64,000 nt of DNA. Origin: Marinobacter sediminicola (GTDB lineage: Bacteria > Pseudomonadota > Gammaproteobacteria > Pseudomonadales > Oleiphilaceae). The stretch lies in contig NZ_JAVIXR010000001.1 of the NCBI RefSeq assembly GCF_031157525.1, positions 1-64,000 on the forward strand, given 5' to 3'. A model generated the notes under the pieces. It ran no database searches. It was not told the origin of the DNA and worked only from the letters and a program-made list of their open reading frames with translations. Both the position numbers and the translations under genes were made by a program. Positions 7,140 to 28,927 of the stretch are shown here, in pieces (position 1 is the first letter of the stretch; every line of letters begins with the position of its first letter).

Positions 7140-7166
7140 GAAAATGGTTTCCAGATGCCACGTTAC

Positions 7167-8487: not shown

Positions 8488-8507
8488 GAAATGATTAAGA
8501 TCATTTC
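8488..8507. promoter_or_regulatory. FNR/ANR-like palindrome between sqr and cysJ
   Basis: GAAATGAT-TAAG-ATCATTTC is a perfect 8-4-8 inverted repeat. Its centre, ATGAT-N4-ATCAT, differs from the FNR/ANR consensus TTGAT-N4-ATCAA only in the outermost base of each half. It lies about 86 bp upstream of sqr and 193 bp upstream of cysJ. The remainder of the 297-bp gap (8403-8699) is AT-rich and shows no other clear feature. Confidence 0.45.
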
Positions 8508-8699
8508 GATTAGAGCTATTTGGAATATCTTTAATGTATATAAAAGACAGCTAATTAGCTCTTATATCGGAATTATCGATTTATTTGTCCTGTCTATTTC
8601 ATTTTGTCACTCATTTGGCGATTCATAGAGTGCGGGGAGGTTTCATCAGGTTTGGCTGGAAACCAGTAATTTATTTACAGCCCACACGGATCATCCAAC

Positions 8700-10502
8700 A
8701 TGACGACAGATCTGAACTCATCTCCTCTCTCTGCGGATCAGCAGGCACGGTTGGCAGAGCTTCTTGACGGCATAAGTGAAGGGCAGCTTTACTGGCTGGC
8801 CGGTTTTCTGGCCGGAAAGTGCTCAGGTGGAACCGCGAGTTCGACGGCCCAAACCGCTGTTTCCGCAAGCGCGTCGACGCCTTCTGCTCCTGAACTGACG
8901 GTTTTATTCGGGTCGCAAACCGGTAACGCAGAAGAGCTTGCGCAGCAGCTAGCGGCCCGTGCTTCAGATAAAGGTATTTCCGCCAAGCTGGTGGATATGG
9001 CGGGCTATAAACCCAAGCAGCTGAAAAACGAGCAGTACCTGGCGGTGCTGGCGTCTACCCATGGAGAGGGCGACCCACCGGACAATGCGCTGGATTTGTA
9101 TGAGTTCCTTCATGGCAAAAAGGCGCCGAAACTGGAGAGGCTTCGCTACAGCGTTCTGTCGCTGGGGGATTCCAGTTACGAGCATTTTTGCAAAACCGGT
9201 CAGGATTTTGACCGCAAGCTTGCGGCGTTAGGCGCAACGGCCCTGGCCGAGCGGGTGGATTGCGATGTGGATTATGAGGATCTGGCGGAAGGCTGGATCA
9301 ACCGGGTTTTGGAAACCATTGCCAACGAAGCAGGCGCCAGCCAGCCTGCGGCTGCCCGTTCAGTAACAGCAGAGTTGACGCCAACCTCCGCCTTTAGCCG
9401 GAAGAATCCCTATTCGGCGGTCATTCTCACCAATCAACTGCTCAGTGGCCGAGGTTCCGATAAGGAGGTGAGGCACATCGAGTTGTCATTGGAAGACTCC
9501 GGCCTGGTCTATAAACCCGGTGACGCAGTGGGTGTATACCCCGAAAACAACCCGGCCCTGGTTAACGAGTTACTGAATACCCTGGGCTTTGACGGTGAGC
9601 AACGTGTCTCTGCCGATGAGCGTGATGTTCCACTGCGGGAGGCGCTCGCTTTCTACCGGGAGATTACCCTGCTTACTCCGCCGCTGATGAAACAGTGGGC
9701 AGAGCTGCTGAATGACGATGATTTAAAGGCTCTGGTGGCAGACAGCACAGAGCTGCGGGCCTGGACAGAGGGGCGCGATCTTCTTGACCTGATTCAGGCC
9801 CGGCCCATTGCCTGGCTGACACCACAGGACCTGGTGAACCTGCTGCGTAAACTGCCTGCAAGGCTGTATTCGATCAGTTCCAGCCAGGCTGCTGTGGAGG
9901 ATGAAGTACATATCACGGTGGCCGCCGTGCGCTATTCCAGCTATGGCCGGGATCGTGAGGGTGTGGCGTCGGCCTGGTTATCTGACCGGATGAACGAAGG
10001 CGACCAGGTGCGCGTCTATATCGATCCCAACAAGAAGTTTGCGCTGCCGGATGATAGCAAGCCGGTGATCATGATTGGCCCCGGCACAGGCGTAGCGCCC
10101 TTCCGTGCCTTCCTGCAGGAGCGAGAAGAACGGGAAGCGGAAGGTGAAAACTGGCTGTTCTTCGGTGATCGTCGGTTCCGCAGTGATTTTCTCTACCAAT
10201 CGGAGTGGCTCAAGTGGCGCCGTGATGGCCTGCTTACAAGGCTGGATGTGGCTTTCTCCCGGGATCAGGCTGAAAAGCGCTATGTACAACATTGCCTCAA
10301 GGAGAACGGTTCCGAGGTATGGGCCTGGTTGCAGCGCGGTGCCAGCCTGTATGTGTGCGGCGATGCCGAAAAAATGGCCCCGGATGTACACCAGGCATTG
10401 CTGGATATTGCCAGTGAACAGGGCGGGCTGAATCCGGAGCAGGCTGAGGATTACCTGCGCCAGTTAAATCGGGATAAACGTTACCAGCGGGATGTGTACT
10501 GA
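8700..10502 (+). CDS. cysJ: Sulfite reductase [NADPH] flavoprotein alpha subunit
   Basis: CysJ moves electrons from NADPH through FAD and FMN to the CysI haemoprotein for assimilatory reduction of sulfite to sulfide. The order of domains is complete: an FMN flavodoxin domain (FGSQTGN at 70-76, about 68-215), a connecting/FAD domain with RLYSIS at 388-393, and an NADPH domain with GPGTGVAPFRAF at 460-471. The typical C-terminus DKRYQRDVY is present. The N-terminus (MTTDLNSSPLSADQQARL) aligns with other CysJ proteins although no strong ribosome-binding site precedes it. It overlaps cysI by one base (TGATG), indicating coupled translation. Confidence 0.96.
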   Translation: MTTDLNSSPLSADQQARLAELLDGISEGQLYWLAGFLAGKCSGGTASSTAQTAVSASASTPSAPELTVLFGSQTGNAEELAQQLAARASDKGISAKLVDMAGYKPKQLKNEQYLAVLASTHGEGDPPDNALDLYEFLHGKKAPKLERLRYSVLSLGDSSYEHFCKTGQDFDRKLAALGATALAERVDCDVDYEDLAEGWINRVLETIANEAGASQPAAARSVTAELTPTSAFSRKNPYSAVILTNQLLSGRGSDKEVRHIELSLEDSGLVYKPGDAVGVYPENNPALVNELLNTLGFDGEQRVSADERDVPLREALAFYREITLLTPPLMKQWAELLNDDDLKALVADSTELRAWTEGRDLLDLIQARPIAWLTPQDLVNLLRKLPARLYSISSSQAAVEDEVHITVAAVRYSSYGRDREGVASAWLSDRMNEGDQVRVYIDPNKKFALPDDSKPVIMIGPGTGVAPFRAFLQEREEREAEGENWLFFGDRRFRSDFLYQSEWLKWRRDGLLTRLDVAFSRDQAEKRYVQHCLKENGSEVWAWLQRGASLYVCGDAEKMAPDVHQALLDIASEQGGLNPEQAEDYLRQLNRDKRYQRDVY

Positions 10503-12199
10503 TGAGTGGAAAATTGCCTGAAGCCGAAGTAATCAAGCGGGAAAGCAACTACCTGCGTGGAACCATTCTGGAGGGGCTGGCGGATCGTACCACCGGTGCC
10601 TTGCCGGAAGACGACACCAAGCTGACGAAATTCCACGGATCTTACCAGCAGGATCACCGGGAAGTGCGAGATGAACGTCGGCGCCAGAAGCTCGAGCCGC
10701 TGTATCAGTTTATGGTGCGTTTGCGTTTGCCCGGGGGTGTTCTGACCACGGATCAGTGGTTGGGCCTCGATAAAATTGCCGACGAGTGTGCGGATTCAAC
10801 CTTGCGCCTGACCACGCGCCAAACGTTCCAGTTCCACGGCGTATTCAAGGAGCAGATGCAGCCGTTCATGCAGAAAATCCATGCTTTGGGCCTGGACAGC
10901 CGTGGAGCCTGTGGCGATGTGAATCGTAACGTGATCAGCAATGTGAACCCTCATCAGTCGCAGCTTCACGGGGAAATTCATGAGCTCTCTCTGGCAATCA
11001 GTGAGCGCTTGCGCTGGCGATCTGCCGCTTATGCCGAGATCTGGCTGGGGGAAGAGTGCGTCCAGAAACTGGGTGAGGAAGAGGAGCCGTTTTACGGGTA
11101 CAAGTATCTTCCCCGCAAGTTCAAGATTGCGCTGGCGGTTCCCCCTGAAAACGACTGCGACGTGTTTGCCAACGATATCGGCCTGATCGCAATTGTTGAA
11201 GATGACCAGATTCGCGGTTTCAACGTGGTCGTTGGCGGTGGAATGGGGCTTACCTATGGCGATCCGGCCACCTATCCGCGCCTGGCTACAATGGCGGGCT
11301 ATGTTGCGAAAGAGCAGATTGTCGATGCGTGCGAAGCAATCTGTGCCATTCAGCGGGATTTCGGTGACCGTACCAACCGCGCCCATGCTCGATTCAAGTA
11401 CACCATTGATGATTACGGCATGGACTGGTTCCAGGAGCGCTTCGAGGAATACCAAGGGCACGCCTTTGCAAAACCGCGCTCGTTCAGCTTGAGCCACAAC
11501 GGCGACCGGTTTGGCTGGGTTGAGGGCGAAGATGGCAATCAGCACCTCACGCTGCTTATTCCTACAGGTCGGGTGGCAGATACTGAAAGCGGGCTTTTGC
11601 GAACAGCGCTGCGCAAGATTGCAGAGGTTCACAACGGCAGTTTCAGGATCACCTGTAACCAGAATCTGGTGATTGCCAATGTACTGCCGGAGAAAAGGGC
11701 GGCGGTAGATGCCATCGTGGAGGAGTACAAGCTGGATGCCGGTACCCGCAGTTCGCCCCTGCGCCAGAACTCCATGGCCTGCGTTGCTCTGCCAACCTGT
11801 GGTTTGGCGATGGCAGAAGCCGAACGCTTTCTGCCGGAATTTGTAACCCGGGTTGAGAGAACCATGGCGGAAGAGGGGCTGGAGCCAGATGCCATAAATC
11901 TGCGAATTACCGGTTGCCCAAACGGCTGCGCCCGGCCATATTTAGGGGAGATTGCACTGACTGGCAAAGCGCCTGGCAAATACAACCTCTACCTGGGGGC
12001 CGATTTCTCAGGCCAGCGTATGAACAGGTTATACCGTGAGAATATTGACACGGACACCATATTGGATGAACTGCGCCCCCTGTTTCGCGCCTATCAGCAA
12101 GAGCGCGAAGCGCAGGAGCGGTTTGGTGATTTTCTGGTCAGAGTTGGTATTGTGGAACAGGAACGCACGCCGGCTATGTTGCATCAACCATTGCAATGA
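10502..12199 (+). CDS. cysI: Sulfite reductase haemoprotein beta subunit
   Basis: CysI carries sirohaem and a [4Fe-4S] cluster and performs the six-electron reduction of sulfite. The cluster ligands are Cys427, Cys433, Cys472 and Cys476, the last two in TGCPNGCARP. Spacing of 6, 39 and 4 residues is the same as in the Escherichia coli enzyme. The length of 565 is normal. The ATG overlaps the cysJ stop by one base. A small gene follows 24 bp later with its own good ribosome-binding site. Confidence 0.96.
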   Translation: MSGKLPEAEVIKRESNYLRGTILEGLADRTTGALPEDDTKLTKFHGSYQQDHREVRDERRRQKLEPLYQFMVRLRLPGGVLTTDQWLGLDKIADECADSTLRLTTRQTFQFHGVFKEQMQPFMQKIHALGLDSRGACGDVNRNVISNVNPHQSQLHGEIHELSLAISERLRWRSAAYAEIWLGEECVQKLGEEEEPFYGYKYLPRKFKIALAVPPENDCDVFANDIGLIAIVEDDQIRGFNVVVGGGMGLTYGDPATYPRLATMAGYVAKEQIVDACEAICAIQRDFGDRTNRAHARFKYTIDDYGMDWFQERFEEYQGHAFAKPRSFSLSHNGDRFGWVEGEDGNQHLTLLIPTGRVADTESGLLRTALRKIAEVHNGSFRITCNQNLVIANVLPEKRAAVDAIVEEYKLDAGTRSSPLRQNSMACVALPTCGLAMAEAERFLPEFVTRVERTMAEEGLEPDAINLRITGCPNGCARPYLGEIALTGKAPGKYNLYLGADFSGQRMNRLYRENIDTDTILDELRPLFRAYQQEREAQERFGDFLVRVGIVEQERTPAMLHQPLQ

Positions 12200-15935: not shown

Positions 15936-17690
15936 ATGCTATCACTTGAACACATTTTGAAATCGGGACATATCCGGCTTCTGGGCCTGCTGCTTTTGCT
16001 GTGGTCTTCCACGGGCCTGGCGCAACAGGTTGAGGTGCGGGTCAAAGGCGACTATCCGGCGCTCAAAGAAAACGCCGAAGCCTTCATTGGTGAGGTAGAG
16101 GGCCGCAGTGCCGGTAACCTTCGACGCTATGCCTCTACGGCGGTTAGCCAGGCTCGCAAAGGGTTGCGGGCACTAGGCTATTACAGTCCAATTGTGGACT
16201 GGCAGGTCGATGAGGGGGATTCCGAAGAAACGGCGCACCTGACTCTGGAAATAACACCTGGCGAGCCGGTTCGTATCAAGACTCGTACCGTTGAAATCCG
16301 CGGGGCTGCATCGACCGATCCGCGGTTTACCGACAATCTGCCTGTTCATCCTGCCGAAGGCGACATACTGAACCACGGCGACTACAGCAATCTTAGGAAC
16401 ATTCTGCAAACCCGTGCCCGGCGCCGAGGGTATTTTGATGGCCGGCTTGTTACCCGCAGCCTGGAAGTGAACCCGGAAACCCTGGAGGCTAACATCACTC
16501 TCGTGTTCGACAGTGGCGACAGGTACCGGCTGGGAGCGGTTACCTTTGAAGATGGGCACTGGTTCGAAAGTGACCTCCTTCACGATTTTGTTACGTTTGA
16601 GCCGGGCATTCCATATCACGCTGATGAAATTGCAAAGCTCAACAGCGACCTGCTCAGTAGTGGCTACTTCTCAGGTGTAGACATTGATGCGGCCCCCTCG
16701 AGCGCAGAGGATGGTGTCATCCCCGTTCGCATCAGCCTGACCCGCCGGGATGGCCGCTCCATTGCCACAGGCCTCGGATTTTCCACAGACGTGGGGCCGC
16801 GCTTCAGGGCTACTTGGCGGGAGCACTGGATCAATCCGATGGGGCACACCCGCGGTGCAGAAACTGAACTATCTGAGCCAAGGCAGAACCTGAGCACCTG
16901 GTATGAGCTGCCGCTGGACCCGCCCATGACCGACCTCATTCGTTTTACGGCGGGTTACCAGCGTGAAGATATCGAGAATATCGAATCAGAGCTGCTGACG
17001 TTTGGGCAGCAATGGCAGCATCAGCTGGATAATGAATGGTTGCAGGTTTTGTCTTTGAGTTGGGAGGGGGAGCGCTTTAGCATTGGTGATGATGAGCAGG
17101 ATACGAGTACGCTGCTGCTGCCGGGGCTTGGTTATTCCAAGCTGCACGTCAACTCACCTCTGGATCCCAGCAAGGGGTATCGTTTGCAGGTTAACGTTAC
17201 TGGCTCTCACCGGGCGGCCCTTTCCAGTGTGGATATTCTGCATGTGAATGCCATTGCCAAAGGCCTATATACGCTTGCTGGAAAACATCGATTCTTGTCA
17301 CGGCTTCAGATCGGTGGTGTAGGGACAAACCAGTTTGAAGATGTGCCGCCTTCTTTGCGATTCTTCGCGGGTGGTGACCAGAGTGTGCGCGGTTATGGTT
17401 ACCAGACGCTCTCACCGGAAAACGATAGCGGCGTTCCGGAGGGGGGGCGCTACACGGTGGTGGGTAGCGCTGAATACCAGTATCAGTTTGCGCAAAAGTG
17501 GCGAGCCGCCGTTTTTGTTGACCATGGCAACGCAGTTAATGACCTGTTCGACCCTCTTGCCACAGGCGTCGGCGCTGATATTCGCTGGATCAGCCCCTTG
17601 GGGCCTTTGCGTCTGGACCTTGCCAAGGGCTTGAATCCTGAATTTGGTGGTGAGTGGCGGATTCACTTCTCAATGGGGCCTGAGTTGTGA
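15936..17690 (+). CDS. tamA: Translocation and assembly module outer-membrane protein TamA
   Basis: TamA is an Omp85-family barrel which, with TamB, helps outer-membrane protein assembly or lipid transport. A signal peptide (LLGLLLLLWSSTGLAQQ) is followed by POTRA-like repeats to about residue 280 and a 16-strand barrel domain. The barrel has a conserved RFFAGGDQSVRGYGY motif (about 474-488), the lid-lock signature of the Omp85 family. The length of 584 is normal. The gene overlaps tamB by four bases. The start ATG at 15936 has only a weak ribosome-binding site. Confidence 0.94.
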   Translation: MLSLEHILKSGHIRLLGLLLLLWSSTGLAQQVEVRVKGDYPALKENAEAFIGEVEGRSAGNLRRYASTAVSQARKGLRALGYYSPIVDWQVDEGDSEETAHLTLEITPGEPVRIKTRTVEIRGAASTDPRFTDNLPVHPAEGDILNHGDYSNLRNILQTRARRRGYFDGRLVTRSLEVNPETLEANITLVFDSGDRYRLGAVTFEDGHWFESDLLHDFVTFEPGIPYHADEIAKLNSDLLSSGYFSGVDIDAAPSSAEDGVIPVRISLTRRDGRSIATGLGFSTDVGPRFRATWREHWINPMGHTRGAETELSEPRQNLSTWYELPLDPPMTDLIRFTAGYQREDIENIESELLTFGQQWQHQLDNEWLQVLSLSWEGERFSIGDDEQDTSTLLLPGLGYSKLHVNSPLDPSKGYRLQVNVTGSHRAALSSVDILHVNAIAKGLYTLAGKHRFLSRLQIGGVGTNQFEDVPPSLRFFAGGDQSVRGYGYQTLSPENDSGVPEGGRYTVVGSAEYQYQFAQKWRAAVFVDHGNAVNDLFDPLATGVGADIRWISPLGPLRLDLAKGLNPEFGGEWRIHFSMGPEL

Positions 17691-20600
17691 CGGAACTGGA
17701 AAGTAACAATAACAGAGCTGACGCCCCGGCTGATCCCCGACGCAAGCGGATGAGCCGACTTCGATTCTGGACAGTGTTACTGCTGGGCCTGCTTGTGCTT
17801 CTCCCGATAGTTTTGGTCGCTGCGGTTTTGCTCGCGCTGCGCTCAGAAACAGGCACCGCCTGGGTTATTGACCAGGTGCCGGGTCTTGAAGCCGTGAACG
17901 ACCAAGGCTCCCTGTTCGGAACCTGGCAAGCAGACCGAATCGAGTGGCACGGCTATGGGGTGGATGTAAGGGTTCAAGCCCCTCTCATAGACTGGTCACC
18001 CTCCTGTCTTTTTGATCTGCAGCTTTGCCTTGAAACCCTGCATCTGGAACAGCTGGACGTTAATGTGCAGCCTTCTGACGATCAGCAGAGCTCCCCGGAG
18101 GACATCAGTTTGCCGAGGCTTGAGTTGCCACTTGGACTCAGGGTAAGTGATGTGCGGCTAGGCACGTTTACCTTCAATGGCAGCAAAGTGTGGGACAGAT
18201 TCGAGCTTGATTCCAAGGGTTCCGGTACGGACTGGACGCTCGAACGGGTTTACTACGAGCGTGATGAATACACAGTGGTGGCCTCTGGTCGTGTCGAAAC
18301 ACGACGGGACTGGCCCGTAAATCTTGACGTTAGCGCTTCACTGCCGCCGCCCTATGGCACGGATTGGGTGATTGATCTGGTTTTGTCGGGGAGTGTAAGG
18401 GATCTTGCAGTTACGGGTCAGAGCCGCGGTTATTTGAATGCTGCGCTGGAAGGAAAGGTAGAGCCTCTGGCAGCCAGCCTGCCAGCGCGCTTACGGGTAA
18501 CCTCTGAATCTTTCCGGGCGGTAGAGGCTTTGCCAGACACACTGGTGCTGAAAAACTGGTTCGCGGAGGCTCAGGGAAGCTTGCAAAGCGGATTCAGGAC
18601 GAAAGGCCAGGCCACATTGCCTGGTACCGAAGGGCCGGTTGAGTTGAAACTGGCGGGATTGGTTACAACCGCTAACGCCAAAGACATACGCCTGGCGCTG
18701 ACGGCAGCCAGTAAAGACGCGAAGAACCAGGCAGAGAGCGCACCTAAAACCGTTGTAGTGACCGGCAGTACCCAATGGCAAGGCGGCCTGAGCGCGGAAG
18801 CAGACATACAGCTCCGGCAGTTTCCCTGGTATTCGCTGATTGCTGGCTTGGAAAAGCCGCCGGTTGATCTGCGCAGACTCGATGGAAACGCCTCATGGCG
18901 CGACGGGCGTTATCAGGCAAACTTCACCGCCGAAGTGGATAGCTCCCAAGGCAGTACAGAATTGGCGGCCTCGGTTGATGGCGACACTTCCCAGGTCCGG
19001 CTGACCGAGCTCTCTGCGGTTACTGAGGCAGGCTCACTCTCAGGCGAGGGCGCTGTCAGGTTTGCTGGACCGCTGAGTTGGCAAGCGGCGCTGGAGCTGG
19101 AGAACTTTAATCCGGGCTATTGGGTTCCGTTTCTGGAAGCTAGTCTCAGCGGTGGTGTTACCACAGAGGGCCAGCTTACTGATGGCCCTGTCCCTGATAT
19201 GACGGCCAGTTGGGACCTTGCGGGACAGTGGCGCGCCAGCCCCACGGTGATTGCAGGCAGCCTTGATACCTCAAGCGGTGACTGGGACGTTCCGGAACTG
19301 AAACTGATTATTGGTGATAACCGTGTTGAAGGTAGCGGGCGTTGGGGTAATCAATTAACAGCCAGCCTTAACCTTATGCTGACGGAGCCGGAGAAAATTT
19401 TACCGGGCCTTGGTGGGCAAGCCGATCTTCAGCTACGGCTTGCCGGTACACCCGATGACCCGCGAGGAACCTTGACGGCCAGCGCAACCGAACTGCGCTG
19501 GCAAGACCTGCTGGTTGTTGAAACTCTGGATGTAAATGCACAGTTGGACCAGGGATTCCGTCTCAACAGTGAGGTACAGGGGAAAGGCGTTTCCGTCGGT
19601 GGGCAAACTATTGAGTCACTAGCCGTGAAGGCGCAAGGTACCCAAGGGGGGCACACGGTCACCCTTGATGCTCAGCATGAAGAAGCAAGGCTGCAGCTGG
19701 ATTTCAAAGGTTCGGCTACGGATAGCTGGAAAGGTTGGGAGGGCGAGCTTGCGCGCGGTGTGATTGATGTGCCTGGGCAGGAGCAGAGTTGGAGGCTGGA
19801 AGCGCCCGCCGGGCTTGTCTATGAAGAAAACGGCGAACTCAATTTTGCTGCACATTGTTGGCGCTGGCAGCAAAGCTCGGTTTGCGCTGACGACCAAACC
19901 TTGCTGCCAGTGCCTAGTGTTGCCTACCGCGTTGACAGTTTCCCGGCTGCGGCCTTGGCGCCGCTTATGCCAGAGTCCTTGCGCTGGCATTCCAGCATCA
20001 ATGGCGAAATTGCCTTCACCTCTGCCGATGCAGGTCCGGATGGCCGGATAGTGCTTGATGCGGGCGAAGGCCGCTTCGAAATGCTGCTGGATGGCGATTG
20101 GGAGACCTTGAGTTACACAACCCTGAGGACAGAGCTGGAGCTGAAACCCGAACAGGCAGATCTGGCCGTGCGGCTGTCGGGGCCTGAACTTGGCAATCTT
20201 TCGGTTGATATGATCCTGGACCCTATGGCCGCAGACCGGTCAGTTGAAGGTAGCTTCAAGCTGGAAGGGCTCGGTATTGCTCTGGCCGGCTTGTTTACCG
20301 GGCTAGAGGAAATTGCTGGCGAGGTTAACGGCGAGGGTACAATTTCCGGGCCACTGATGAAACCGGCAGTGAAAGGTGAGATTGCATTGACCAATGGGCG
20401 GGTGGTAGATCCACGTTTACCGCTGCCTATGGAAGAAGTGATCGTTAGCGTTGAGCTCAACGGCTATTCCGCTGATATTCGTGGTCGAATTCATAGTAAT
20501 GCCCGCAGCGAAGCCGTTATCGAGGGGGAAGTCGACTGGCAGGGGGCTCCCGGGGGCCAGATTCGCATTACCGGAGAGCGGTTACCCTTTAGCCTGGAAC

Positions 20601-21472
20601 CCTACGCGCACGTCGAAGTGGCGCCAGATCTCACCATTGCCTTCCGTGAAAGCACGCTGAGCGTGGAAGGCCGGATTGAGGTGCCCCGAGGAAGTATCGA
20701 GATTAAAGGTCTGCCTGCTCAGGCGGTGTCCGTATCTGAAGACGAAGTGATTGTGGGCGTGGAGCAGGAGGAGCCTCTTATCCGCTCACTGGATATGGAT
20801 GTCACGGTGGTGGTCGGTGATGATCAGGTGACCTTTAAGGCATTCGGCGTGACCGGTGATCTGGAAGGTTCGTTGCGAATCCATAGCGACATGGACACAA
20901 GAGGCACACTGCAGTTGGTCAACGGCCAATACGAGGCCTATGGGCAGGAGCTTGAGCTGCGTCGGGCGCGATTACTGTTTGTTGGTAATCTGGTTCAGCC
21001 GTACCTGGATATTGAAGCGATCCGGCAGGTGGATACCGTTGTAGCAGGGATTCGATTAAGTGGGCCGGTTCAATCGCCCACAACGGAAGTGTTTTCCAGC
21101 CCTTCCATGCCGCAATCAGATGCACTGTCTTATGTGATTCTTGGCCGCGCCCCCGGTGGCCAAAGCGATGATGGCCAAATGAGTCGTGCTGCCATTTCCC
21201 TTGGCCTGAACCAGGTAAACCGGGTGACAGGCCAGATTGGAGAAGAGTTCGGCATACGCCAGCTAACCCTGGAAGCCGAGGGCAGTGGCGATCAAACATC
21301 GGTGGTGGCCAGTGGTTACCTGACCGACGAACTCAGTGTTCGTTACGGGGTCGGAATTTTTGAGCCGATCAGTACAGTGGCGTTGCGTTATGATCTGGGC
21401 AAATACTTCTATCTGGAAGCCGCTAGCGGGCTGGCTGCATCTCTGGATATTTTCTATACCCGGGATTTCTAG
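17687..21472 (+). CDS. tamB: Translocation and assembly module inner-membrane protein TamB
   Basis: TamB spans the periplasm from an N-terminal inner-membrane helix (about 26-53) to the outer membrane, with a long beta-taco or groove body and a C-terminal DUF490/TamB domain (about 900-1261). The final residues, YTRDF, are typical of the family. The GTG start overlaps the tamA stop (GTGA), which indicates translational coupling. The length of 1261 is normal. The 3' end overlaps the convergent glutamine amidotransferase gene by four bases. Confidence 0.95.
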   Translation: MTELESNNNRADAPADPRRKRMSRLRFWTVLLLGLLVLLPIVLVAAVLLALRSETGTAWVIDQVPGLEAVNDQGSLFGTWQADRIEWHGYGVDVRVQAPLIDWSPSCLFDLQLCLETLHLEQLDVNVQPSDDQQSSPEDISLPRLELPLGLRVSDVRLGTFTFNGSKVWDRFELDSKGSGTDWTLERVYYERDEYTVVASGRVETRRDWPVNLDVSASLPPPYGTDWVIDLVLSGSVRDLAVTGQSRGYLNAALEGKVEPLAASLPARLRVTSESFRAVEALPDTLVLKNWFAEAQGSLQSGFRTKGQATLPGTEGPVELKLAGLVTTANAKDIRLALTAASKDAKNQAESAPKTVVVTGSTQWQGGLSAEADIQLRQFPWYSLIAGLEKPPVDLRRLDGNASWRDGRYQANFTAEVDSSQGSTELAASVDGDTSQVRLTELSAVTEAGSLSGEGAVRFAGPLSWQAALELENFNPGYWVPFLEASLSGGVTTEGQLTDGPVPDMTASWDLAGQWRASPTVIAGSLDTSSGDWDVPELKLIIGDNRVEGSGRWGNQLTASLNLMLTEPEKILPGLGGQADLQLRLAGTPDDPRGTLTASATELRWQDLLVVETLDVNAQLDQGFRLNSEVQGKGVSVGGQTIESLAVKAQGTQGGHTVTLDAQHEEARLQLDFKGSATDSWKGWEGELARGVIDVPGQEQSWRLEAPAGLVYEENGELNFAAHCWRWQQSSVCADDQTLLPVPSVAYRVDSFPAAALAPLMPESLRWHSSINGEIAFTSADAGPDGRIVLDAGEGRFEMLLDGDWETLSYTTLRTELELKPEQADLAVRLSGPELGNLSVDMILDPMAADRSVEGSFKLEGLGIALAGLFTGLEEIAGEVNGEGTISGPLMKPAVKGEIALTNGRVVDPRLPLPMEEVIVSVELNGYSADIRGRIHSNARSEAVIEGEVDWQGAPGGQIRITGERLPFSLEPYAHVEVAPDLTIAFRESTLSVEGRIEVPRGSIEIKGLPAQAVSVSEDEVIVGVEQEEPLIRSLDMDVTVVVGDDQVTFKAFGVTGDLEGSLRIHSDMDTRGTLQLVNGQYEAYGQELELRRARLLFVGNLVQPYLDIEAIRQVDTVVAGIRLSGPVQSPTTEVFSSPSMPQSDALSYVILGRAPGGQSDDGQMSRAAISLGLNQVNRVTGQIGEEFGIRQLTLEAEGSGDQTSVVASGYLTDELSVRYGVGIFEPISTVALRYDLGKYFYLEAASGLAASLDIFYTRDF

Positions 21473-22236
21473 CATCCATCAGTGTTGGTGGTTTCGCTTG
21501 GTGACGATTCGGTGGCTGTGCCACTCGACAAACGGGCCAGCTTGAATGACATGGCGGCCTCCAGAAATTGACCGAAGATGCGCCTGTGCCCACCGTGGTA
21601 AAGCAGGTATTCCGGGTGCCATTGAAGCCCCATAAGCCATTGCCCCCGGGAGCTTTCAATGGCCTGAACAAACAGGTCGTTATCCACTGCGGTGACCTTC
21701 AGGTTTTTACCAAGCTGCTTTATTGCCTGGCTGTGGATGCGGTTGGCACCTATTACGGGCGCTCTCATAACCTGCCCCAGCAGGCTTGTTGCTACAAGTC
21801 GCACGGTTTGCATTGGTAGCAACAAAGGACGGTGCCTGGTGTTTACCCTCAGGGGCGTTACGTTCTGGCACAGGGAGCCGCCATGGAATATGTTGATGAA
21901 CTGCGCACCCCTGCATATGCCCAATACAGGGATTCCTATCGACTCCGCTTGCTCCAGCAGCAGCTGATCTGTGCTATCTCGTGCTTTGTCGTACTTGGCG
22001 CTCACCTGGGGTTGCTGGCCATAACGTTCAGGGTGAACGTGAGTTCCGCCGGAAAGCACCAGGCCGTCAAGCAGGGACACATCCACTCTTGCGCCTGGGC
22101 GAATGTAGTAAGTGTGCGCACCCTTCAAGCGAAGCGCCAGGCTAATCAAGCGTTGGGCAACACGCTTCCGGGCCGGGCCACTGATACCTATCGTTAGCCC
22201 TGGCAGGCTGTCGTCTGGATCGATGTGTTTAGACAT
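21469..22236 (-). CDS. Class I glutamine amidotransferase / peptidase C26, partner of amidoligase
   Basis: It is a PuuD-like class I glutamine amidotransferase (gamma-glutamyl hydrolase clan). The nucleophile Cys108 lies in LGICRGAQ and the His-Glu pair in LQWHPEY (His207, Glu209). The NRIHSQAIKQLG segment also matches PuuD-type proteins. It begins inside the end of the amidoligase gene (8-bp overlap), so the two proteins are probably made together. Known amidoligase systems pair a ligase that joins an amine to a carboxyl group with such a hydrolase or ammonia donor. The specific substrate here is not known; ordinary putrescine degradation is not supported by the neighbours. Confidence 0.88.
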   Translation of the reverse strand: MSKHIDPDDSLPGLTIGISGPARKRVAQRLISLALRLKGAHTYYIRPGARVDVSLLDGLVLSGGTHVHPERYGQQPQVSAKYDKARDSTDQLLLEQAESIGIPVLGICRGAQFINIFHGGSLCQNVTPLRVNTRHRPLLLPMQTVRLVATSLLGQVMRAPVIGANRIHSQAIKQLGKNLKVTAVDNDLFVQAIESSRGQWLMGLQWHPEYLLYHGGHRRIFGQFLEAAMSFKLARLSSGTATESSPSETTNTDGC

Positions 22237-23230
22237 AGCCCTTGCTTTCGAGCCAGTTTGCAGAAGTTTCCTGCCAGCTTGTAGTCAGATTGCGTAAGCT
22301 GATTTTACGGCTGTCCCTGAACAGGGTGCGCAGTTCTTTCAAATCCTCAGCATGATTTGCCAGTTGTTCGACTACGACCCAATCATTCCAGACAGTAGAA
22401 AAATGCCATTCAGGATTGTCGATGTCACAGTCCGGAAGTCTGTAGTGCAGGGTGGGCCTGCTTTTAATACGGGGGTCTTCGACGTATTCGTCGAGCAGCG
22501 ATTTGTCGAGATGCGCGAACAGGGGCAACAGATCCAGCGCCCGGTTTCGTGTGGGGTTGGATTCGAGATAATCCACCATCATCTGCCGCTGATCTGGCAC
22601 ATAGTCGTCCTCAATCAACAGGTCAGTGTACTTGCTGCTCCATGGCTCAATATATGGCGTAAATTTTCTGCTGATGTCCAGCTGATGGCGCGCCTTTAGC
22701 CATTCATATAACACTGCAAACGCCTGATAGTAGCGCACGAGTGTTGTCGGCTTGAGATCCGGCAATTCAGGGTTGAGCTGTAAGCCGAATGCAAAATAGA
22801 TCGCGTTTCTGCTACCCAGTGCACCCGCCTCCCTGAGCTCGTCGACCAGAGTCTCAATCTGGCACAAGTCTGAAAACTCCATGGGCGGGCTGACAATCTC
22901 CAGCGGCACAATCAGTTCAGCCGCTGCGTCTATAACCTCCATTGCTTGCCCGCCAAGTTCCCGAATGGGTTGGGGTAAGCGGTCGTCTGCGAGGTCCAGA
23001 TCCTTGATTGGGTCTGAGTCCAACTCGATAATAAAATGACCAAAGGGTGTTTCAAGCGTGCTTACATAGCGGGACTCCGGTTTTGATTTACCGCCCAACA
23101 ATTCGCCAGCCAGATCTACGAGCTCCTGATACCCCAAACCGGACAATTCAATCTCCACACCCACCCGGCGCTCTTTCCCGTCGGCTGTTTTGGCAGTGTC
23201 TGGCATGTTTAACGTGATGGTTCGATTCAT
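22229..23230 (-). CDS. Putative amidoligase (COOH-NH2 ligase, glutamine synthetase fold relative)
   Basis: The 333-residue product matches the pattern of the putative amidoligase family (PF12224): VGVEIELSGL near residue 24 supplies metal-binding Glu residues, FIIELDSDP near 66 follows, then PLEIVSPPMEF near 112 and YYQAFAVLYEWL near 167. The family is related to gamma-glutamylcysteine synthetase and is predicted to form amide bonds with ATP. The usual G-x-HVH motif seems to be replaced by GLQLNPE. It is the first gene of a two-gene operon with the amidotransferase. No member with this context has a product I can name, so peptide, wall or small-molecule amidation are all open. Confidence 0.8.
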   Translation of the reverse strand: MNRTITLNMPDTAKTADGKERRVGVEIELSGLGYQELVDLAGELLGGKSKPESRYVSTLETPFGHFIIELDSDPIKDLDLADDRLPQPIRELGGQAMEVIDAAAELIVPLEIVSPPMEFSDLCQIETLVDELREAGALGSRNAIYFAFGLQLNPELPDLKPTTLVRYYQAFAVLYEWLKARHQLDISRKFTPYIEPWSSKYTDLLIEDDYVPDQRQMMVDYLESNPTRNRALDLLPLFAHLDKSLLDEYVEDPRIKSRPTLHYRLPDCDIDNPEWHFSTVWNDWVVVEQLANHAEDLKELRTLFRDSRKISLRNLTTSWQETSANWLESKGYV

Positions 23231-23360
23231 GGTTCTCTCTAAAGGCGGAGTGTGAGGTTTTTAACTTTATCACACTACCAAAGCCTTACCAGTCAGGGGG
23301 CTTCAAGAAAATGAAGTGCTTGGCTTTACACTGGATAAAACACTGTATATAGTGATTTAA

Positions 23361-23376
23361 CTGTATAAAAAAACAG
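23361..23376. promoter_or_regulatory. LexA (SOS) box upstream of lexA
   Basis: CTGT-ATAAAAAA-ACAG fits the gammaproteobacterial LexA box CTGT-N8-ACAG exactly. It lies 84 bp before lexA. A weaker half-matching site begins at 23343 (CTGTATATAGTGATTT). This predicts autorepression of lexA-sulA. Confidence 0.85.
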
Positions 23377-23459
23377 GATGGTTGAATCACTGTATACGCC
23401 ATCTCTTATAAGACCCGGCTTGTATAAGCCCTGCATGCAGCAAGCGGAGCAGCGAAACA

Positions 23460-24068
23460 ATGAAGCTGACAGCAAGACAGACTCAGGTACTGGAAATTAT
23501 TCGTCGATCTGTAGACGAAACCGGCTATCCACCTACACGTGCAGAAATTGCGACAGAGATGGGGTTCCGTTCGGCGAACGCTGCGGAAGAGCACTTGCGA
23601 GCACTGGCGCGTAAGGGTGCCATCGAAATGGTTCCAGGTGCCAGCAGGGGAATCCGCTTGCCTGAAGTTGCTGAAGATCCTGGCCTGCCGGTAATTGGCC
23701 AGGTAGCTGCGGGCAGTCCTATTCTGGCGCAGGAGCACGTTGAAGAGCATTGCACACTGAAGCCGGAATTCTTCTCGCCGTCCGCTGACTATCTGCTTCG
23801 AGTCAGAGGTATGAGCATGAAGGATATCGGGATTCTTGATGGTGACCTGCTTGCTGTACACAGTACTCAGGATGTTCATAACGGCCAGGTGGTCGTGGCC
23901 CGGGTGGGTGATGAAGTGACTGTGAAACGTTTTAAAAAAGAAGGTTCGAAAGTCTATCTGATCGCCGAAAACGAAGAGTTTTCGCCGATAGAAATCGACC
24001 TGAAAGAGCAGGAATTGTTTATTGAAGGGCTGGGTGTGGGTGTTATCCGGCGTTCCGATCTGCACTGA
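23460..24068 (+). CDS. lexA: LexA SOS repressor
   Basis: LexA represses SOS genes and cleaves itself when RecA filaments form. Residues 1-65 are the winged-helix DNA-binding domain. The cleavage site is Ala84-Gly85 (QVAAGSP), and the catalytic dyad is Ser119 (GMSM) and Lys156 (VTVKRF). The length of 202 and all these positions equal the E. coli protein. GGAG precedes the ATG. sulA follows 43 bp downstream, as in Pseudomonas. Confidence 0.98.
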
Positions 24069-24111
24069 TCGGGCGGGCATAACCACAGACGCATTGAAAG
24101 GCGGGTAATTT

Positions 24112-24603
24112 ATGGAACAGTTAAGTTTTAATCAGAATATTGCGTGGCAGCAGAGCGTTATGCCAGGCCTGATATCGGAATACGCAGCCCCGAAACAGCG
24201 CACGGTTATTCGGGCTCGGCACAAGCCCGATGTGGAAAGCACCAAGCCGGCTGGCAATGTGACGGAAATCATTCTCCCGGAAGGGCAGGTAGAGAACTTC
24301 CAGTTGCTATTGCCAATGCTGACTCAGCTGAACCAGGAGAAACGCTGGCTGGCGTGGATAGACCCGCCCCAGGCGCTGGTGAGTAAGTGGCAGAAGATGC
24401 ACGGCATTGTGACCGGTGAACTGCTGGTTCTACGCTCCACCGCTGAACACCCGGCTCGCCAACTTGCTGAAATAGCTCTCAGCGCGGGTACCTGCCACGC
24501 AGTAGTTATGTGGACAGGAAAGCTGGGTAAAACAGCGTTTGCCTCCTTGCAGGAAGCAGCTGCTAAAGGTAACAGCCACGGGGTTGTTCTCAGGCAGCGT
24601 TGA
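24112..24603 (+). CDS. sulA: SOS cell-division inhibitor SulA
   Basis: SulA binds FtsZ and blocks septum formation during the SOS response. The 163-residue product has the family core LLLPMLTQLNQEKRWLAWI followed by the ATP-less RecA-like segment. The place directly behind lexA is the Pseudomonas-type lexA-sulA arrangement, so it should be induced with lexA from the LexA-controlled promoter. No separate LexA box is visible in the 43-bp gap. Confidence 0.92.
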   Translation: MEQLSFNQNIAWQQSVMPGLISEYAAPKQRTVIRARHKPDVESTKPAGNVTEIILPEGQVENFQLLLPMLTQLNQEKRWLAWIDPPQALVSKWQKMHGIVTGELLVLRSTAEHPARQLAEIALSAGTCHAVVMWTGKLGKTAFASLQEAAAKGNSHGVVLRQR

Positions 24604-24611
24604 GCCTGGTC

Positions 24612-24872
24612 TTAATGAAGGGTGTATGCGGGCTGGGTGTCTGAAATGTCCAGCTCGTCATCCTCCCAGTCGATGTCGTGAGAGACAGTTCCGGCGGCTT
24701 CTATTCCAGCTGCAATCATGGCTTTGGCCACAGACATATCCCGATCTCCCATCATTTCACGGGCTTCATCTGAAAACGAAATTTTGACCAATGGCGCGTT
24801 GTCGTCATCGATGCGCCGCAGGGCGTAATCGCCGTTGTTCAGTTGTACAATTTCAAAAAACGATGGTGACAT
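24612..24872 (-). CDS. Conserved hypothetical protein (PA3008-like)
   Basis: The 86-residue acidic protein has no recognisable catalytic motif. It starts MSPSFFEIVQLNNGDYALRRIDD, a pattern I associate with the small protein found beside lexA-sulA in Pseudomonas. AAAGG lies before its ATG. It converges on sulA with 8 bp between stop codons. The function is unknown; the conserved location beside lexA-sulA is its only clue. Confidence 0.75.
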   Translation of the reverse strand: MSPSFFEIVQLNNGDYALRRIDDDNAPLVKISFSDEAREMMGDRDMSVAKAMIAAGIEAAGTVSHDIDWEDDELDISDTQPAYTLH

Positions 24873-24922
24873 TTCAATAACCTTTTAATGTTGAGAACCT
24901 GAGGCTGTGTGCTTGGTAGGGG

Positions 24923-25423
24923 TTACCACTCGCCGTGCTGCGCTTCCAGATTGTCGGTAAACTGTTTCATGGCTTTCAGCGTTCTTCTGAGAGCTTGGGC
25001 TGAGCGGTCTGGCCCAAGCTCTGTTGAGACGGCAATAATGTTTTCTGAATTCACCGTCTTCCGTGTCGCGGGCGGGCTGTTCTGAGCAGTCTCGAGTTGC
25101 TCAATGTGGCTCCACCAGCTTCCGCTGTCCCGCTCGAGGGCGGTAAGCAACTCAATTTCTGAGGCCTCATCGCCAATAAGGCTGGCGAGTTCTGCGAGAG
25201 ACAAGGGTCCGTTTGGGCGCTTCTGGTAAAACTTGGCAATCATTACCAGCAATAACCGCTTTGCCCTCAGTAGTAGCTCGATAGAGCCTTGTGTTGCTGC
25301 TTCCTGTTGCAATTTTTGCGGTGGCGCCGAACTTCCTGTAATCGCAGTTTGGGCCGCGACATCAAGTAACGTGCTGGCAAGAAACAATTTTTGTGAAACC
25401 AGCGAATACCATTGAGAAGCCAT
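24923..25423 (-). CDS. DUF6586-like protein
   Basis: The 166-residue helical protein resembles the conserved hypothetical gene that follows the PA3008-like gene in Pseudomonas. AAGGTGAG precedes the ATG. No signal peptide, membrane segment or catalytic motif is visible. It is transcribed with the downstream 86-residue gene, 50 bp away. The role is unknown. Confidence 0.72.
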   Translation of the reverse strand: MASQWYSLVSQKLFLASTLLDVAAQTAITGSSAPPQKLQQEAATQGSIELLLRAKRLLLVMIAKFYQKRPNGPLSLAELASLIGDEASEIELLTALERDSGSWWSHIEQLETAQNSPPATRKTVNSENIIAVSTELGPDRSAQALRRTLKAMKQFTDNLEAQHGEW

Positions 25424-25601
25424 CGAGCGCTCACCTTAATTAATCAGCCATTCTACCATTTTGGTTTGCAGATTTCTTTATCCCCCTTCAGACTTGCGCC
25501 CAGGTGACAATAAAACACAATTAATGACTTGAAACGGGCGTTTGAATTTGGCAAAAAGCATGCTTCGTCTTGGGTTATTGGGTTGTCTGGAGGGGTAAGG
25601 A

Positions 25602-26960
25602 ATGCGGAGCCGATTAGTCGCATGTATGGCAGTTTTTTTGGTCGGGTACACCGGCCAGGCGCTGTCAGCAGTAACGGTAGCTGAAGCAGAACGGCTAAAA
25701 CAGGATTTGACGCCGGTTGGTGCTGAGCGGGCAGGCAATGCCTCTGGCAGCATTCCCGAGTGGACAGGCGGGCTGCGTGAGGCGCCAGGAAACTGGCGTA
25801 AGGGGCAGGTTGAGATAGACCCTTTCTCTGCAGACGATACGTTGTTCGTAATCACTGCGAACAACATGCATCTCTACAAAGACAAGCTCTCTGATGGCTC
25901 GCTCAAAATGTTGAGCCAATACGGCCCGAACTTCTTTATGCCGGTTTATCAGACTCGTCGCACCGCCGCATTTCCTGAGCATGTGTACGATAAGTTCTAT
26001 GAGAATGCTCTGACTGCAGAAGTACTGGATAATGGTAACGGCGTACGCAACACCATTATGACAAGCCCGTTTCCAATCCCGAAAAGCGGGCTTGAGGTGA
26101 TGTGGAACCACATTCTTCGTTACCGTGGCGAGGAAGTTTCCTTCCGGAGTGCCTCTGCGACGCCGCAGGTAGATGGCTCCTTCAACCCAGTGGTTAACCA
26201 CTACGACTACTACTTCCCTTACAGCAAGGAAGGCACTGAGCTTGCAGATATAGATAACAAGATCTTCTATCTCAAGACCGATACGATTTCACCATCCACT
26301 CTGGCTGGAACAATCACGCTGGTGCATGAAACACTGGATCAGGTGCGATCCCCTCGGTTGGCTTGGCGTTACGACGCTGGATCACGGCGCCTGAGGCGCT
26401 CACCGAACCTTGCGTATGAGACAGACTTGCCTAACTCTTCGTCGCTGCGTTCGGTCGACCAGAAAGATATGTATAACGGTGCGCCAAACCAGTATGACTG
26501 GGAGCTGAAGGGCAAGCGTGAATTGTTTGTTCCTTACAATGCCTACAAGCTGCATGATGAGTCGGTTAAGCCGGGTGATGTCATCCGCCCGGGGCATATC
26601 AATCAAGAACTGGCCCGCTACGAGCTTCACCGAGTCTGGGTTGTCGAAGCAACTCGTCGCACCGGCATCAAGCACATCTACGACCGTCGTGTTTTCTATG
26701 TGGACGAAGACAGTTGGCAAATCCTGATGTCGGAAGAGTATGACGAGGCTGGTAACTTATGGCGTGTGTCCGAAGCTCACAACATCAGCTATTACCAGGT
26801 ACCAGTATTCTGGACTACCATGGAGATGACGTACGACCTCAAGGCGAAACGCTATTATATTGATGGTTTGAACAATAACTATCCTGCGTATAATTTCGAG
26901 CCCGGGTTCCGTGGCAGCGAGTTTACGGCTTCCTCAGCGAGGCGGGACGCTCGCCGCTGA
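25602..26960 (+). CDS. DUF1329 periplasmic/outer-membrane protein
   Basis: A signal peptide (residues 1-23, ending ALSA) leads a 452-residue protein with DUF1329 features: the LTPVGAERAGNASGSIPEWTGG start, the LRAPGN-like LREAPGN segment, the AWRYDAGSRRLRRSPNLAYE motif and the C-terminal YDEAGNLWRVSEAHN. The family is related in fold to lipoprotein-sorting LolA/LolB proteins and is often found with RND-type or hydrocarbon/steroid uptake systems. No such transporter is adjacent here. AAGGA precedes the ATG. It sits before the fliT-like gene without an obvious terminator. Confidence 0.85.
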   Translation: MRSRLVACMAVFLVGYTGQALSAVTVAEAERLKQDLTPVGAERAGNASGSIPEWTGGLREAPGNWRKGQVEIDPFSADDTLFVITANNMHLYKDKLSDGSLKMLSQYGPNFFMPVYQTRRTAAFPEHVYDKFYENALTAEVLDNGNGVRNTIMTSPFPIPKSGLEVMWNHILRYRGEEVSFRSASATPQVDGSFNPVVNHYDYYFPYSKEGTELADIDNKIFYLKTDTISPSTLAGTITLVHETLDQVRSPRLAWRYDAGSRRLRRSPNLAYETDLPNSSSLRSVDQKDMYNGAPNQYDWELKGKRELFVPYNAYKLHDESVKPGDVIRPGHINQELARYELHRVWVVEATRRTGIKHIYDRRVFYVDEDSWQILMSEEYDEAGNLWRVSEAHNISYYQVPVFWTTMEMTYDLKAKRYYIDGLNNNYPAYNFEPGFRGSEFTASSARRDARR

Positions 26961-27050
26961 TTATGGTGTAAATGGTTGAGCCGCTAGCGTTTGCCGGTGG
27001 CTTGTCCCGGGTCGTCCGTATTCTATCCCTTGCTTCCAGGAGAACACGCT

Positions 27051-27404
27051 GTGGCCGACCCTCAAACTCCCCCTTCAACCGCACTCCAGACATACCTGGA
27101 TAGCTTCGATCAACTTATGGCAGACCTCGGTCGCGCGCTCGCCGAGCAGGACTGGGATGCCTTGGTTCGGCTCAATGAGCAGGTTAAGCCTACAATAGAG
27201 CCACTTATGACTTCGCTCGAAGCCGGGCAGGCGGATCCGGAACTGGTTCGGACACGGCTTGAAGAGTTGCGCCAGTTTATGGACGCAGCAGGCGAGGGCG
27301 CTACCCGAGCCAAGGCCGAAGCGGAACAGGCCTTGAAGGGCGTGAATCGAAACCGCAGTGCCGCCAAGGCCTATCAGAACGTTTCAACAACCCAGCCTAA
27401 ATAG
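27051..27404 (+). CDS. fliT: FliT-like flagellar chaperone candidate
   Basis: The GTG at 27051 is chosen because AGGAGA lies 7 bp upstream; a longer version from 26991 would start in the leader. The 117-residue product is all-helical, with an FDQLMADLGRALAEQDWDALVRLNEQVKP segment typical of FliT-type export chaperones. Its place directly before fleQ equals that of the fliT-like gene in Pseudomonas. There it follows fliS; here the upstream gene is a DUF1329 gene instead. FliT proteins cap the filament-cap protein and can bind regulators. The assignment rests mainly on context and composition. Confidence 0.65.
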   Translation: MADPQTPPSTALQTYLDSFDQLMADLGRALAEQDWDALVRLNEQVKPTIEPLMTSLEAGQADPELVRTRLEELRQFMDAAGEGATRAKAEAEQALKGVNRNRSAAKAYQNVSTTQPK

Positions 27405-27414
27405 CGTCATAAAA

Positions 27415-27443
27415 TTGACTCTTCTGTGTTTACAGTCTTAAAT
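27415..27443 (+). promoter_or_regulatory. sigma70 promoter of fleQ
   Basis: TTGACT (27415-27420), a 17-bp spacer and TTAAAT (27438-27443) lie 33 bp before the fleQ start. A housekeeping promoter fits the role of FleQ at the top of the cascade. Confidence 0.6.
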
Positions 27444-27475
27444 ACCGCACATATCCCCCAAAGAGATGTTTGTGA

Positions 27476-28927
27476 ATGTCCAAAAATAACAAGGTGTTGG
27501 TGCTGAGTGAGGACGAGTCGAGGCGCCGGGATCTGGCGACTATTCTGGAGTTCATCGGCGAGGAGCAAGTTTTAGCAGGCAGCGAAGCCTTGGCGCTCCT
27601 CGAATCCGGCGATGCAGGAAGCTTGGCGGACATCTCGGTTGCTGTGGTAAATGGGGAAGACCCGAACATCGTCAGCACCATTGAAAAAGTGTGCAAAGCG
27701 GTTCAGGGCGTTCCTTTCCTGATGGTTGGCGACCCTGTACTCAAAGGCCTTCCGGAAGCGGATGCCGCACGCATCATTGCCCGTATGGAATGGCCGCTAA
27801 ACTACACCAAGTTTGTTGATTCGTTGTACCGCGCTCAAATATACAGCGATCAGTTCCGCCGCTCCAAGGAACGTGGTGAGCAGCGAGGCCTGCAGCTGTT
27901 TCGCAGTCTGGTTGGTACCAGCCGCAAGGTGCAGCAAGTGCGCCAGCTGATGGAGCAAGTGGCCGATAAGGATGTGAGTGTACTGATTACCGGGCCGTCT
28001 GGCACCGGCAAAGAGGTTGTTGCCAGAAACCTTCATTACCATTCCTCCCGTCGTGACAAGCCGTTTGTGCCCGTAAACTGCGGCGCCATTCCTGCGGAGT
28101 TGCTGGAAAGCGAATTGTTCGGCCATGAAAAGGGTGCATTTACCGGCGCTATTACAGCACGGGTTGGGCGTTTCGAGATGGCGGAAGGCGGCACTCTGTT
28201 TCTGGATGAAATCGGCGATATGCCCCTGAACATGCAGGTAAAAATACTGCGCGTTTTGCAGGAACGTACGTTTGAGCGGGTTGGCAGTAACCGGACGATT
28301 TCTGCGGATGTTCGTGTTATTGCGGCCACTCACAAACACCTTGAAGATATGATTGAATCCGGTGAGTTCCGGGAAGATCTTTACTATCGCCTGAATGTCT
28401 TTCCCATTGAAGTGCCGTCACTGCGGGATCGCGTGGAAGATATTCCACTGCTGATTAATGAGTTGATTTCTCGCATGGAGAAAGAGAAGCGCGGCTCTTT
28501 GCGAATGAATTCGGCGGCCATCATGAGTTTGTGCCGGCACGACTGGCCGGGCAACGTGCGGGAGCTTGCGAACCTGGTGGAGCGGCTGGCGATTATGCAC
28601 CCGTATTCGGTAATCGGGGTGCAGGAGTTGCCGAAGAAGTTCCGGTATGTGGACGATTTTGATGAGAATCGGCCAATTGAGGATTCGGGCATGCCTTCTG
28701 GTATTCCTGGTCTGGTTGGGTTGGATGCCCCGGCTTTGTTGCCGGTGAATGGTATTGATCTCAAGGATTATTTGTCGAATCTTGAGCGGCAGTTGATTCA
28801 GCAGGCTTTGGATGAAGCTGGGGGAGTGGTTGCTCGGGCGGCGGAGAAGCTTAGAGTTAGGCGGACGACGTTGGTTGAGAAGGTTCGGAAGTATGGGCTT
28901 CGGGAGGAGGAGTCTGAGGAGTCCTGA
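27476..28927 (+). CDS. fleQ: Flagellar master regulator FleQ (sigma54 enhancer-binding protein)
   Basis: FleQ activates sigma54-dependent flagellar promoters and in Pseudomonas also answers to c-di-GMP and FleN. The N-terminal atypical receiver (about 5-120) lacks the normal phospho-acceptor pattern. The AAA+ domain has Walker A GPSGTGKE (about 171-178), GAFTGA for sigma54 contact (220-225), Walker [10 protein letters not shown], and the C-terminal Fis-type helix-turn-helix with [23 protein letters not shown]. The length of 483 is normal. It has its own promoter, and targets with sigma54 sites follow in this window. Confidence 0.96.

Follow-up and report, generated by a model that had tools for sequence, protein, structure and literature searches.

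A proposed make-and-break gamma-glutamyl module of an amidoligase and a C26-type hydrolase in Marinobacter sediminicola

What does an amidoligase make when the gene that overlaps its end encodes a protein built like an amide hydrolase? The question is raised by two minus-strand genes in the first 64,000 nucleotides of contig NZ_JAVIXR010000001.1 of Marinobacter sediminicola (assembly GCF_031157525.1; the whole of this stretch is the window). One encodes an Amidoligase_2 protein (PF12224) and the other, lying downstream of it, a protein of the Peptidase_C26 family (PF07722). Amidoligase_2 proteins were reportedly predicted by Iyer and co-workers in 2009 to be COOH–NH2 ligases, and PF12224 annotations occur in bacterial, plasmid and phage sequences, with no tested reaction for any such protein found among the literature matches listed. 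A sequence-only reading of the window had described the pair as an uncharacterised amide-forming system made up of a ligase and a class I glutamine amidotransferase. We propose that the pair is probably a make-and-break module, in which the ligase makes and the C26 protein cuts one gamma-glutamyl amide, and not a glutamine-fed amidating system. The open prediction of an 'unusual amide' can in this way be replaced with concrete chemistry that is open to assay.

The C26 partner and the enzymes that take its place

The affinities of the partner itself are the first part of the argument. Its best family is Peptidase_C26 (141.6 bits against a cut-off of 20.5, over profile positions 56 to 219 of 219); it also passes the model for class I glutamine amidotransferases (GATases), PF00117, but more weakly (50 bits against a cut-off of 22.8). 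The predicted structure (pLDDT 90.7) is nearest to gamma-glutamyl hydrolases, with a Z score of 29.9 to PuuD (224 residues at 1.9 Å), 29.8 to Lin1909 and 29.0 to SpuA H221N with its glutamyl thioester (tied rows), while the best GATase subunit among those listed reaches 22.8. A profile of the C26 family run against PDB sequences gives 165 bits for Lin1909, 130 for SpuA and 115 for PuuD, compared with 47 for the GATase subunits of GMP synthase. Cys108, His207 and Glu209 are invariant in all 53 aligned C26 rows, as are G106, R109, G110 and Q112 of the GxCRGxQ nucleophile motif, and both triad and motif are common to PuuD, SpuA and Lin1909. The earlier assignment to class I GATases therefore stands as far as the triad and the PF00117 match are concerned and falls on the choice of family; 'amidotransferase' is likely a misannotation, which we correct here. 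The C26 protein is set apart from these hydrolases by a score under the PuuD equivalog cut-off, by a partner that is an amidoligase and not PuuA, and by the lack of any polyamine genes seen alongside.

The second part comes from loci in other genomes. Redundancy was removed at 85% identity (173 loci to 143) and 33 Marinobacter-like rows (at least 60% identity) were set aside, leaving 110 non-redundant loci outside the Marinobacter group. The C26 gene directly follows the amidoligase gene in 94 of them, and 16 have no C26 gene. In three of these 16 (L090, L091 and L192) the gene directly upstream encodes GGACT (PF06094, gamma-glutamylamine cyclotransferase), so that all three GGACT cases among the 110 sit in loci lacking C26 (hypergeometric 0.0026, uncorrected). 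A rescan of 206 loci, some of them redundant, with a GGACT profile built from three of the ten loci that follow, found GGACT in 12. In ten loci, drawn from six genomes, it lies on the same strand directly upstream of the amidoligase gene and C26 is present in none; in the two others GGACT is divergent and C26 is present. Duplicates among the GGACT loci are L187, with the same amidoligase as L090, and L253, L260 and L285, which are second copies of loci already counted. A search of the families of two of the GGACT genomes, with 79 genomes in each, gave matches in 7 and 25.

Gamma-glutamyltransferase (GGT), whose fold is unrelated to those of GGACT-type and C26 enzymes, is a third neighbour of this kind. 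Five of the 110 loci, all of them with C26, encode it directly upstream of the amidoligase, and a sixth genome (L263, whose genus code, g60, is that of three of the GGACT genomes) likewise has GGT directly upstream with C26 also present. When upstream genes were scanned with Pfam, GGT made up 4 of 70 and GGACT 3. A genome carries on average 1.23 copies of GGT and 0.94 of GGACT (95 genomes each), from which 0.025 and 0.019 would be expected among the 70; these expectations assume 3,500 genes and independent loci, and the amidoligase tree shows that the loci are not independent. Another 18 of the 88 upstream open reading frames (ORFs) were kept out of the scan, mostly as short and doubtful, one of them (L185) being a partial GGT already found by profile. 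The genome of M. sediminicola itself (3.88 Mb, with the window on contig C11) has one GGT (contig C36) and one weak GGACT match (contig C2), neither near the pair.

Three unrelated types of gamma-glutamyl-cleaving enzyme thus flank one kind of ligase, which is why we favour a module that makes and breaks a gamma-glutamyl amide. Because the C26 protein is nearest to gamma-glutamyl hydrolases and is replaced by GGACT in six genomes, it more likely breaks such an amide than supplies ammonia, and the description of the locus as amide-forming gives way accordingly. Such a swap between unrelated gamma-glutamyl-cleaving enzymes, next to one and the same ligase, narrows the choice of product, which is probably a gamma-glutamyl amide.

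The pairing of ligase and hydrolase is itself well conserved. The C26 gene follows the amidoligase gene in 55 of 60 neighbourhoods, lies downstream on the same strand in 132 of 147 loci, and is present in 53 of 54 loci of Marinobacter type, by which we mean the group of the window's closest relatives (some of the 54 are of the same species). This is not mere synteny, since the surrounding genes differ between loci. The conservation of the two genes as a pair, expected from the sequence-only reading, is thereby borne out, and its further suggestion that they act together gains support from it. The exception among the 54 is L135, from a Marinobacter metagenome-assembled genome, where near 5971-10809 the amidoligase gene stands without a C26 gene and directly convergent with tamB, a natural single-gene case.

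The amidoligase and the proposed chemistry

The ligase is a clear member of PF12224 (183.4 bits against a cut-off of 22, over profile positions 1 to 245 of 245), as had been suggested from its ExE, LEIVSPPM and YYQAFAVLYEW strings, all of which are present. Its AlphaFold2 model (pLDDT 90.6) has a fold of the glutamine-synthetase/glutamate-cysteine-ligase type, the same fold class as the rest of the family: the top Foldseek match is the plant glutamate-cysteine ligase 2gwc (E 9.6e-4, probability 1.00), YbdK ranks sixth (E 0.025), and glutamine synthetase is matched with a VIA Z score of 13.5 over 215 residues at 3.6 Å. In an alignment of 59 amidoligases, where the window protein is about 31–52% identical to the non-Marinobacter rows, E26, E28, E69, D71, E111, N153, R188, R228, H262 and R264 are invariant throughout; the five acidic residues E26 to E111 are candidates for binding metal. 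The family member in the window belongs to a C26-paired subgroup whose motif is GxHxN, with Asn in all 59 rows, His in 40 and Gln in 19, the last including every Marinobacter row. The earlier suggestion that GLQLNPE is an altered form of a GxHVH motif, and hence a sign of different chemistry, was rejected on these counts; within this subgroup the change is ordinary variation.

Built on the families, folds, invariant catalytic residues and gene order observed here, and on the absence of C26 in related loci that carry another gamma-glutamyl-cleaving enzyme, the proposed chemistry would run as follows. The amidoligase would spend ATP on linking an amine to the gamma-carboxyl of glutamate, giving gamma-Glu-NH-R, and the C26 protein would hydrolyse this product through a glutamyl thioester on its Cys-His-Glu triad, giving glutamate and R-NH2. 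Release would follow once R had been altered or transported, or had served its purpose. We infer that the acyl part is glutamate, which way each reaction runs, and that the two enzymes share one metabolite. The logic may be likened to that of PuuA and PuuD. A pure futile cycle would be wasteful, and something therefore probably happens to the capped molecule in between, whether chemistry on R, movement across a membrane or storage. The ligase need not be the glutathione enzyme, since GshA (PF04262) is separately present in all 24 genomes searched, that of M. sediminicola included.

Several observations weigh against this proposal. On the side of the ligase, a single Foldseek match reaches E 0.001, with a low TM-score of 0.39, and the fold is held in common with plant glutamate-cysteine ligase, YbdK and GshA, but hhalign finds no sequence relation to GshA or YbdK, so that glutamate-binding residues could not be transferred from them, a search of PDB sequences with the amidoligase gives no match up to E 10, and a search with its profile gives a best E of 0.01, to an unrelated protein. 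On the side of the hydrolase, the Cys-His-Glu triad is also common to class I GATases, and the protein scores 51.7 bits on the PuuD equivalog NF008471 (NCBIfam), where the cut-off is 266; being far below it, the protein is best called C26-like and not PuuD itself. The amidoligase also stands without any recognised gamma-glutamyl enzyme in 13 of the 110 loci and in L135. Lastly, a tree of 46 amidoligases gathers all placed GGACT and GGT rows into one clade of 18 (support 99/98), three rows of which have C26 alone. The Marinobacter rows lie outside this clade, and the inference from GGACT and GGT therefore reaches the window by homology alone. Mapped on the tree, GGACT in either orientation changes 4 times, GGT 3 times and the presence of C26 5 times; the well-supported branches by themselves force one change each for GGACT and GGT, or two for GGACT on a larger quick tree. 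The recruitment of GGACT and GGT thus belongs to a single lineage, within which switches probably took place.

What may happen to the capped molecule is hinted at by further neighbours. At least 21 of the 110 loci have a YqaA/DedA-type membrane gene directly downstream, and of 61 downstream genes scanned 22 encode a VTT domain. In a set of 147 loci, 35 have a YqaA-type gene on the same strand no more than 2.5 kb downstream, and no Marinobacter-type locus is among the 35. In L082, L094 and L095, all without C26, the YqaA/DedA gene comes directly after the amidoligase gene. The YqaA proteins of the cluster are 36–46% identical to E. coli YqaA (8 of 8 compared), and the genome of M. sediminicola has one YqaA-like place (contig C38), with none of the profiled partners in the stretch around it. 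DedA proteins are reported, in part, as undecaprenyl-phosphate flippases (PMC10127716). The GGT copies start with what look by eye like lipoprotein signals and the GGACT copies with an N-terminal hydrophobic segment. Together, these YqaA genes and the signs of export in GGT and GGACT weakly favour movement of the capped molecule. One can picture a gamma-glutamyl shuttle across the inner membrane, in which an amine, or an amine-bearing lipid or carrier, would be capped in the cytoplasm, moved by the YqaA/DedA-type protein, and uncapped either on the outer side, where lipoprotein GGT or membrane-anchored GGACT would act, or on the inner side by C26, with Marinobacter keeping a minimal core of ligase and hydrolase. 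Such a scheme is speculative, and we hold it to be improbable as it stands.

Two other associations seen near these genes were tried and set aside. E. coli yqaA lies directly upstream of gshA (MG1655 record 2814883-2816940, L288), a parallel that was dropped when, of 50 other yqaA loci, a single one (L310) proved to have gshA; the 50 consist of the 30 best matches, the place in the M. sediminicola genome and 19 chosen among the stronger matches, with places beside known amidoligases excluded. A gene for an AI-2E/PerM-type transporter lies just upstream of the amidoligase gene in L065, L071, L074, L078, L082, L166 and L176, overlapping or abutting its start in several, which amounts to 6 of 70 upstream genes by Pfam, 6 of the 110 loci or 7 of 147 loci. 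It is not read as a functional partner because 4 of the 7 cases come from one family code, f23.

Other explanations for the pair

The best placed of the alternatives is a special case of the make-and-break module, namely the use or detoxification of polyamines or ethanolamine, in which an amine would be glutamylated, processed and then freed by the C26 protein. The enzyme logic would be that of E. coli puuA and puuD (reviewed in PMC9397018), which are divergent neighbours, and in both systems a ligase of the glutamine synthetase superfamily and a C26 hydrolase are encoded side by side. The pair in the window differs in its ligase family and in its same-strand, overlapping genes. In an alphaproteobacterial plasmid locus (L196) the gene directly upstream of the pair does encode an aldehyde dehydrogenase, but it is the one such case among the 70 upstream genes scanned, and no oxidase, dehydrogenase or polyamine transport gene was seen in a reading of the ORFs beside the pair in the window, where the direct neighbours are tamB and lexA. 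A role of this kind is possible, if on the unlikely side.

In an envelope role, the module would add amide links, gamma-glutamyl or other, to peptidoglycan stems or another surface polymer, or remove them; such a role is partly compatible with the make-and-break module, as it gives a name to R. The YqaA/DedA-type neighbours and the N termini of GGT and GGACT described above fit it, as do phage gene cassettes. In RIO-1, phiEco32 and LUZ24-like phages, an amidoligase, a gamma-glutamyl cyclotransferase and an amidotransferase form what is described as a peptidoglycan modification cassette (PMC5498523, PMC3890496); one cassette amidoligase is called gamma-glutamyl (PMC5498523), PF12224 is named for the cassette (PMC3890496), and amidoligase cassettes also appear in two other papers (PMC11318856, PMC10945688). 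Combinations of these three activities are therefore already described in phages, and the exchange of C26 for GGACT beside one ligase in bacteria, which was not found among the literature matches listed, is the part added here. The likeness has limits. Phage UFV-P2 has a class II amidotransferase (PF13522), an ATP-grasp protein and a second COOH–NH2 ligase (PMC3890496). By reading, with no library scan, none of the ORFs of at least 80 residues at 19500-28500 of the window looks like any of these. The phage sequences are too distant for tblastn: a search of 50,697 phage records with the window amidoligase gives no match at E 0.001, and viral contigs gave no confirmed relative, although in BFVD there are 28 fold matches at E 0.001 or better, at 10–16% identity, many of them named amidoligase. 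Since the ligase and the C26 protein also have no membrane segment by hydropathy and tamB is mostly not directly adjacent in related loci, we regard an envelope role as unlikely.

The C26 protein could instead be a true glutaminase subunit that hands ammonia to the amidoligase, which would then make a primary amide from the carboxylate of a metabolite. The PF00117 match speaks for this, and the genes are co-directional in all 132 of the 147 loci with C26 downstream, often overlapping; phage PF12224 genes likewise lie near GATase genes, though of class II (PMC10580990, PMC3890496). In both structure and sequence, however, the protein is nearest to gamma-glutamyl hydrolases, 16 of the 110 loci have no such partner, and the cyclotransferase encoded beside the ligase in six genomes should not supply ammonia for amidation. 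We find a glutaminase quite unlikely on this balance.

Control of the pair by the SOS response, through a LexA box in the intergenic region shared with lexA, is highly improbable: of 20 Marinobacter loci, 19 contain the CTGT-N8-ACAG box at some point of the 4-kb locus, the box lies in strict form within 400 bp upstream of the amidoligase gene in 30 of 55 Marinobacter-type loci (mostly 135–160 bp away), and 49 of 54 have lexA as a nearby divergent gene, but 25 of the 55 are without the strict box, as are 150 of 151 other loci (the exception, L162, being a mislabelled Marinobacter), so that SOS control was rejected. A LexA box is expected at lexA itself, and this one probably belongs to the divergent gene.

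Layout of the locus and spread of the ligase

Both ORFs of the pair lie on the minus strand with the overlap previously described (Table 1), which is 8 bp with stop codons included. The spacing from ligase stop to hydrolase start is −8 in all nine Marinobacter-type loci measured, including that of the window, with start codons picked by a script that favours the window's start. Across loci the gap ranges from −67 to +78 bp, again with script-chosen start codons. The divergent neighbour is presumably lexA, a name given from its protein sequence.

Table 1. Positions in the window of the gene pair and of the features around it.
Feature	Position	Strand	Description
Amidoligase gene	22229..23230	minus	Amidoligase_2 (PF12224), 333 aa; predicted ATP-dependent gamma-glutamyl amide ligase; conserved E26, E28, E69, D71, E111; GLQLNPE is GxHxN with Gln for His
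C26 gene	21469..22236	minus	Peptidase_C26 (PF07722), class-I-GATase-like, 255 aa; predicted gamma-glutamyl hydrolase; triad C108, H207, E209
Overlap of amidoligase and C26 genes, 8 bp	22229..22236	minus	ATGTCTAA, hydrolase start and ligase stop
LexA-box-like palindrome CTGT-N8-ACAG	23361..23376	.	Between lexA and the amidoligase gene; probably serves lexA
lexA	23460..24068	plus	Divergent neighbour, context only
tamB	17687..21472	plus	Convergent neighbour with 4-bp overlap with the C26 gene, context only; name from the sequence-only reading

The overlap with tamB had been put down to either chance or an envelope link. The overlap is there, but the link does not hold as a fixed feature: tamB is convergent in all 54 Marinobacter-type loci and directly next (<300 bp) in only 12, which makes the overlap lineage-specific, and the link was rejected on that footing. 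In 41 of the 54 loci, the window's not among them, there is another gene near tamB, encoding a small secreted-looking protein (for example L110:7706-8386) that may be SIMPL/DUF541-like. Where checked, it sits between the C26 gene and tamB.

All 36 same-genus genomes searched carry the amidoligase, as does 1 of the 21 other genomes sampled with them from the order. Across the order, 74 of 293 genomes and 37 of 118 genera have a PF12224 match, at one place per genome except in G206, where the match is split in two. With alignment A1 as query (fragments L114 and L104 and the duplicate L106 were left out of alignments A1 and A2), the amidoligase is found in at least 18 of 369 genomes of the class, G922 having two places, and in at least 22 of 398 genomes of the phylum; these searches scored at most five candidates per genome, and the tallies may be low. 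This patchy distribution, together with 11 alphaproteobacterial plasmid records and metagenome assemblies titled Balneolales and Polyangia, suggests horizontal transfer, provided that the metagenome bins are clean. The annotation reads amidoligase for ten of these 11 relatives and is missing for the other. Seven plasmid loci were opened; C26 adjoins the amidoligase gene in three, does not in another three, and one is unannotated. In L198 and L202 the amidoligase gene has no C26 partner and lies close to genes for a transposase or recombinase, and in L198 also near relaxase and secretion genes, settings which suggest that the ligase is mobile on its own.

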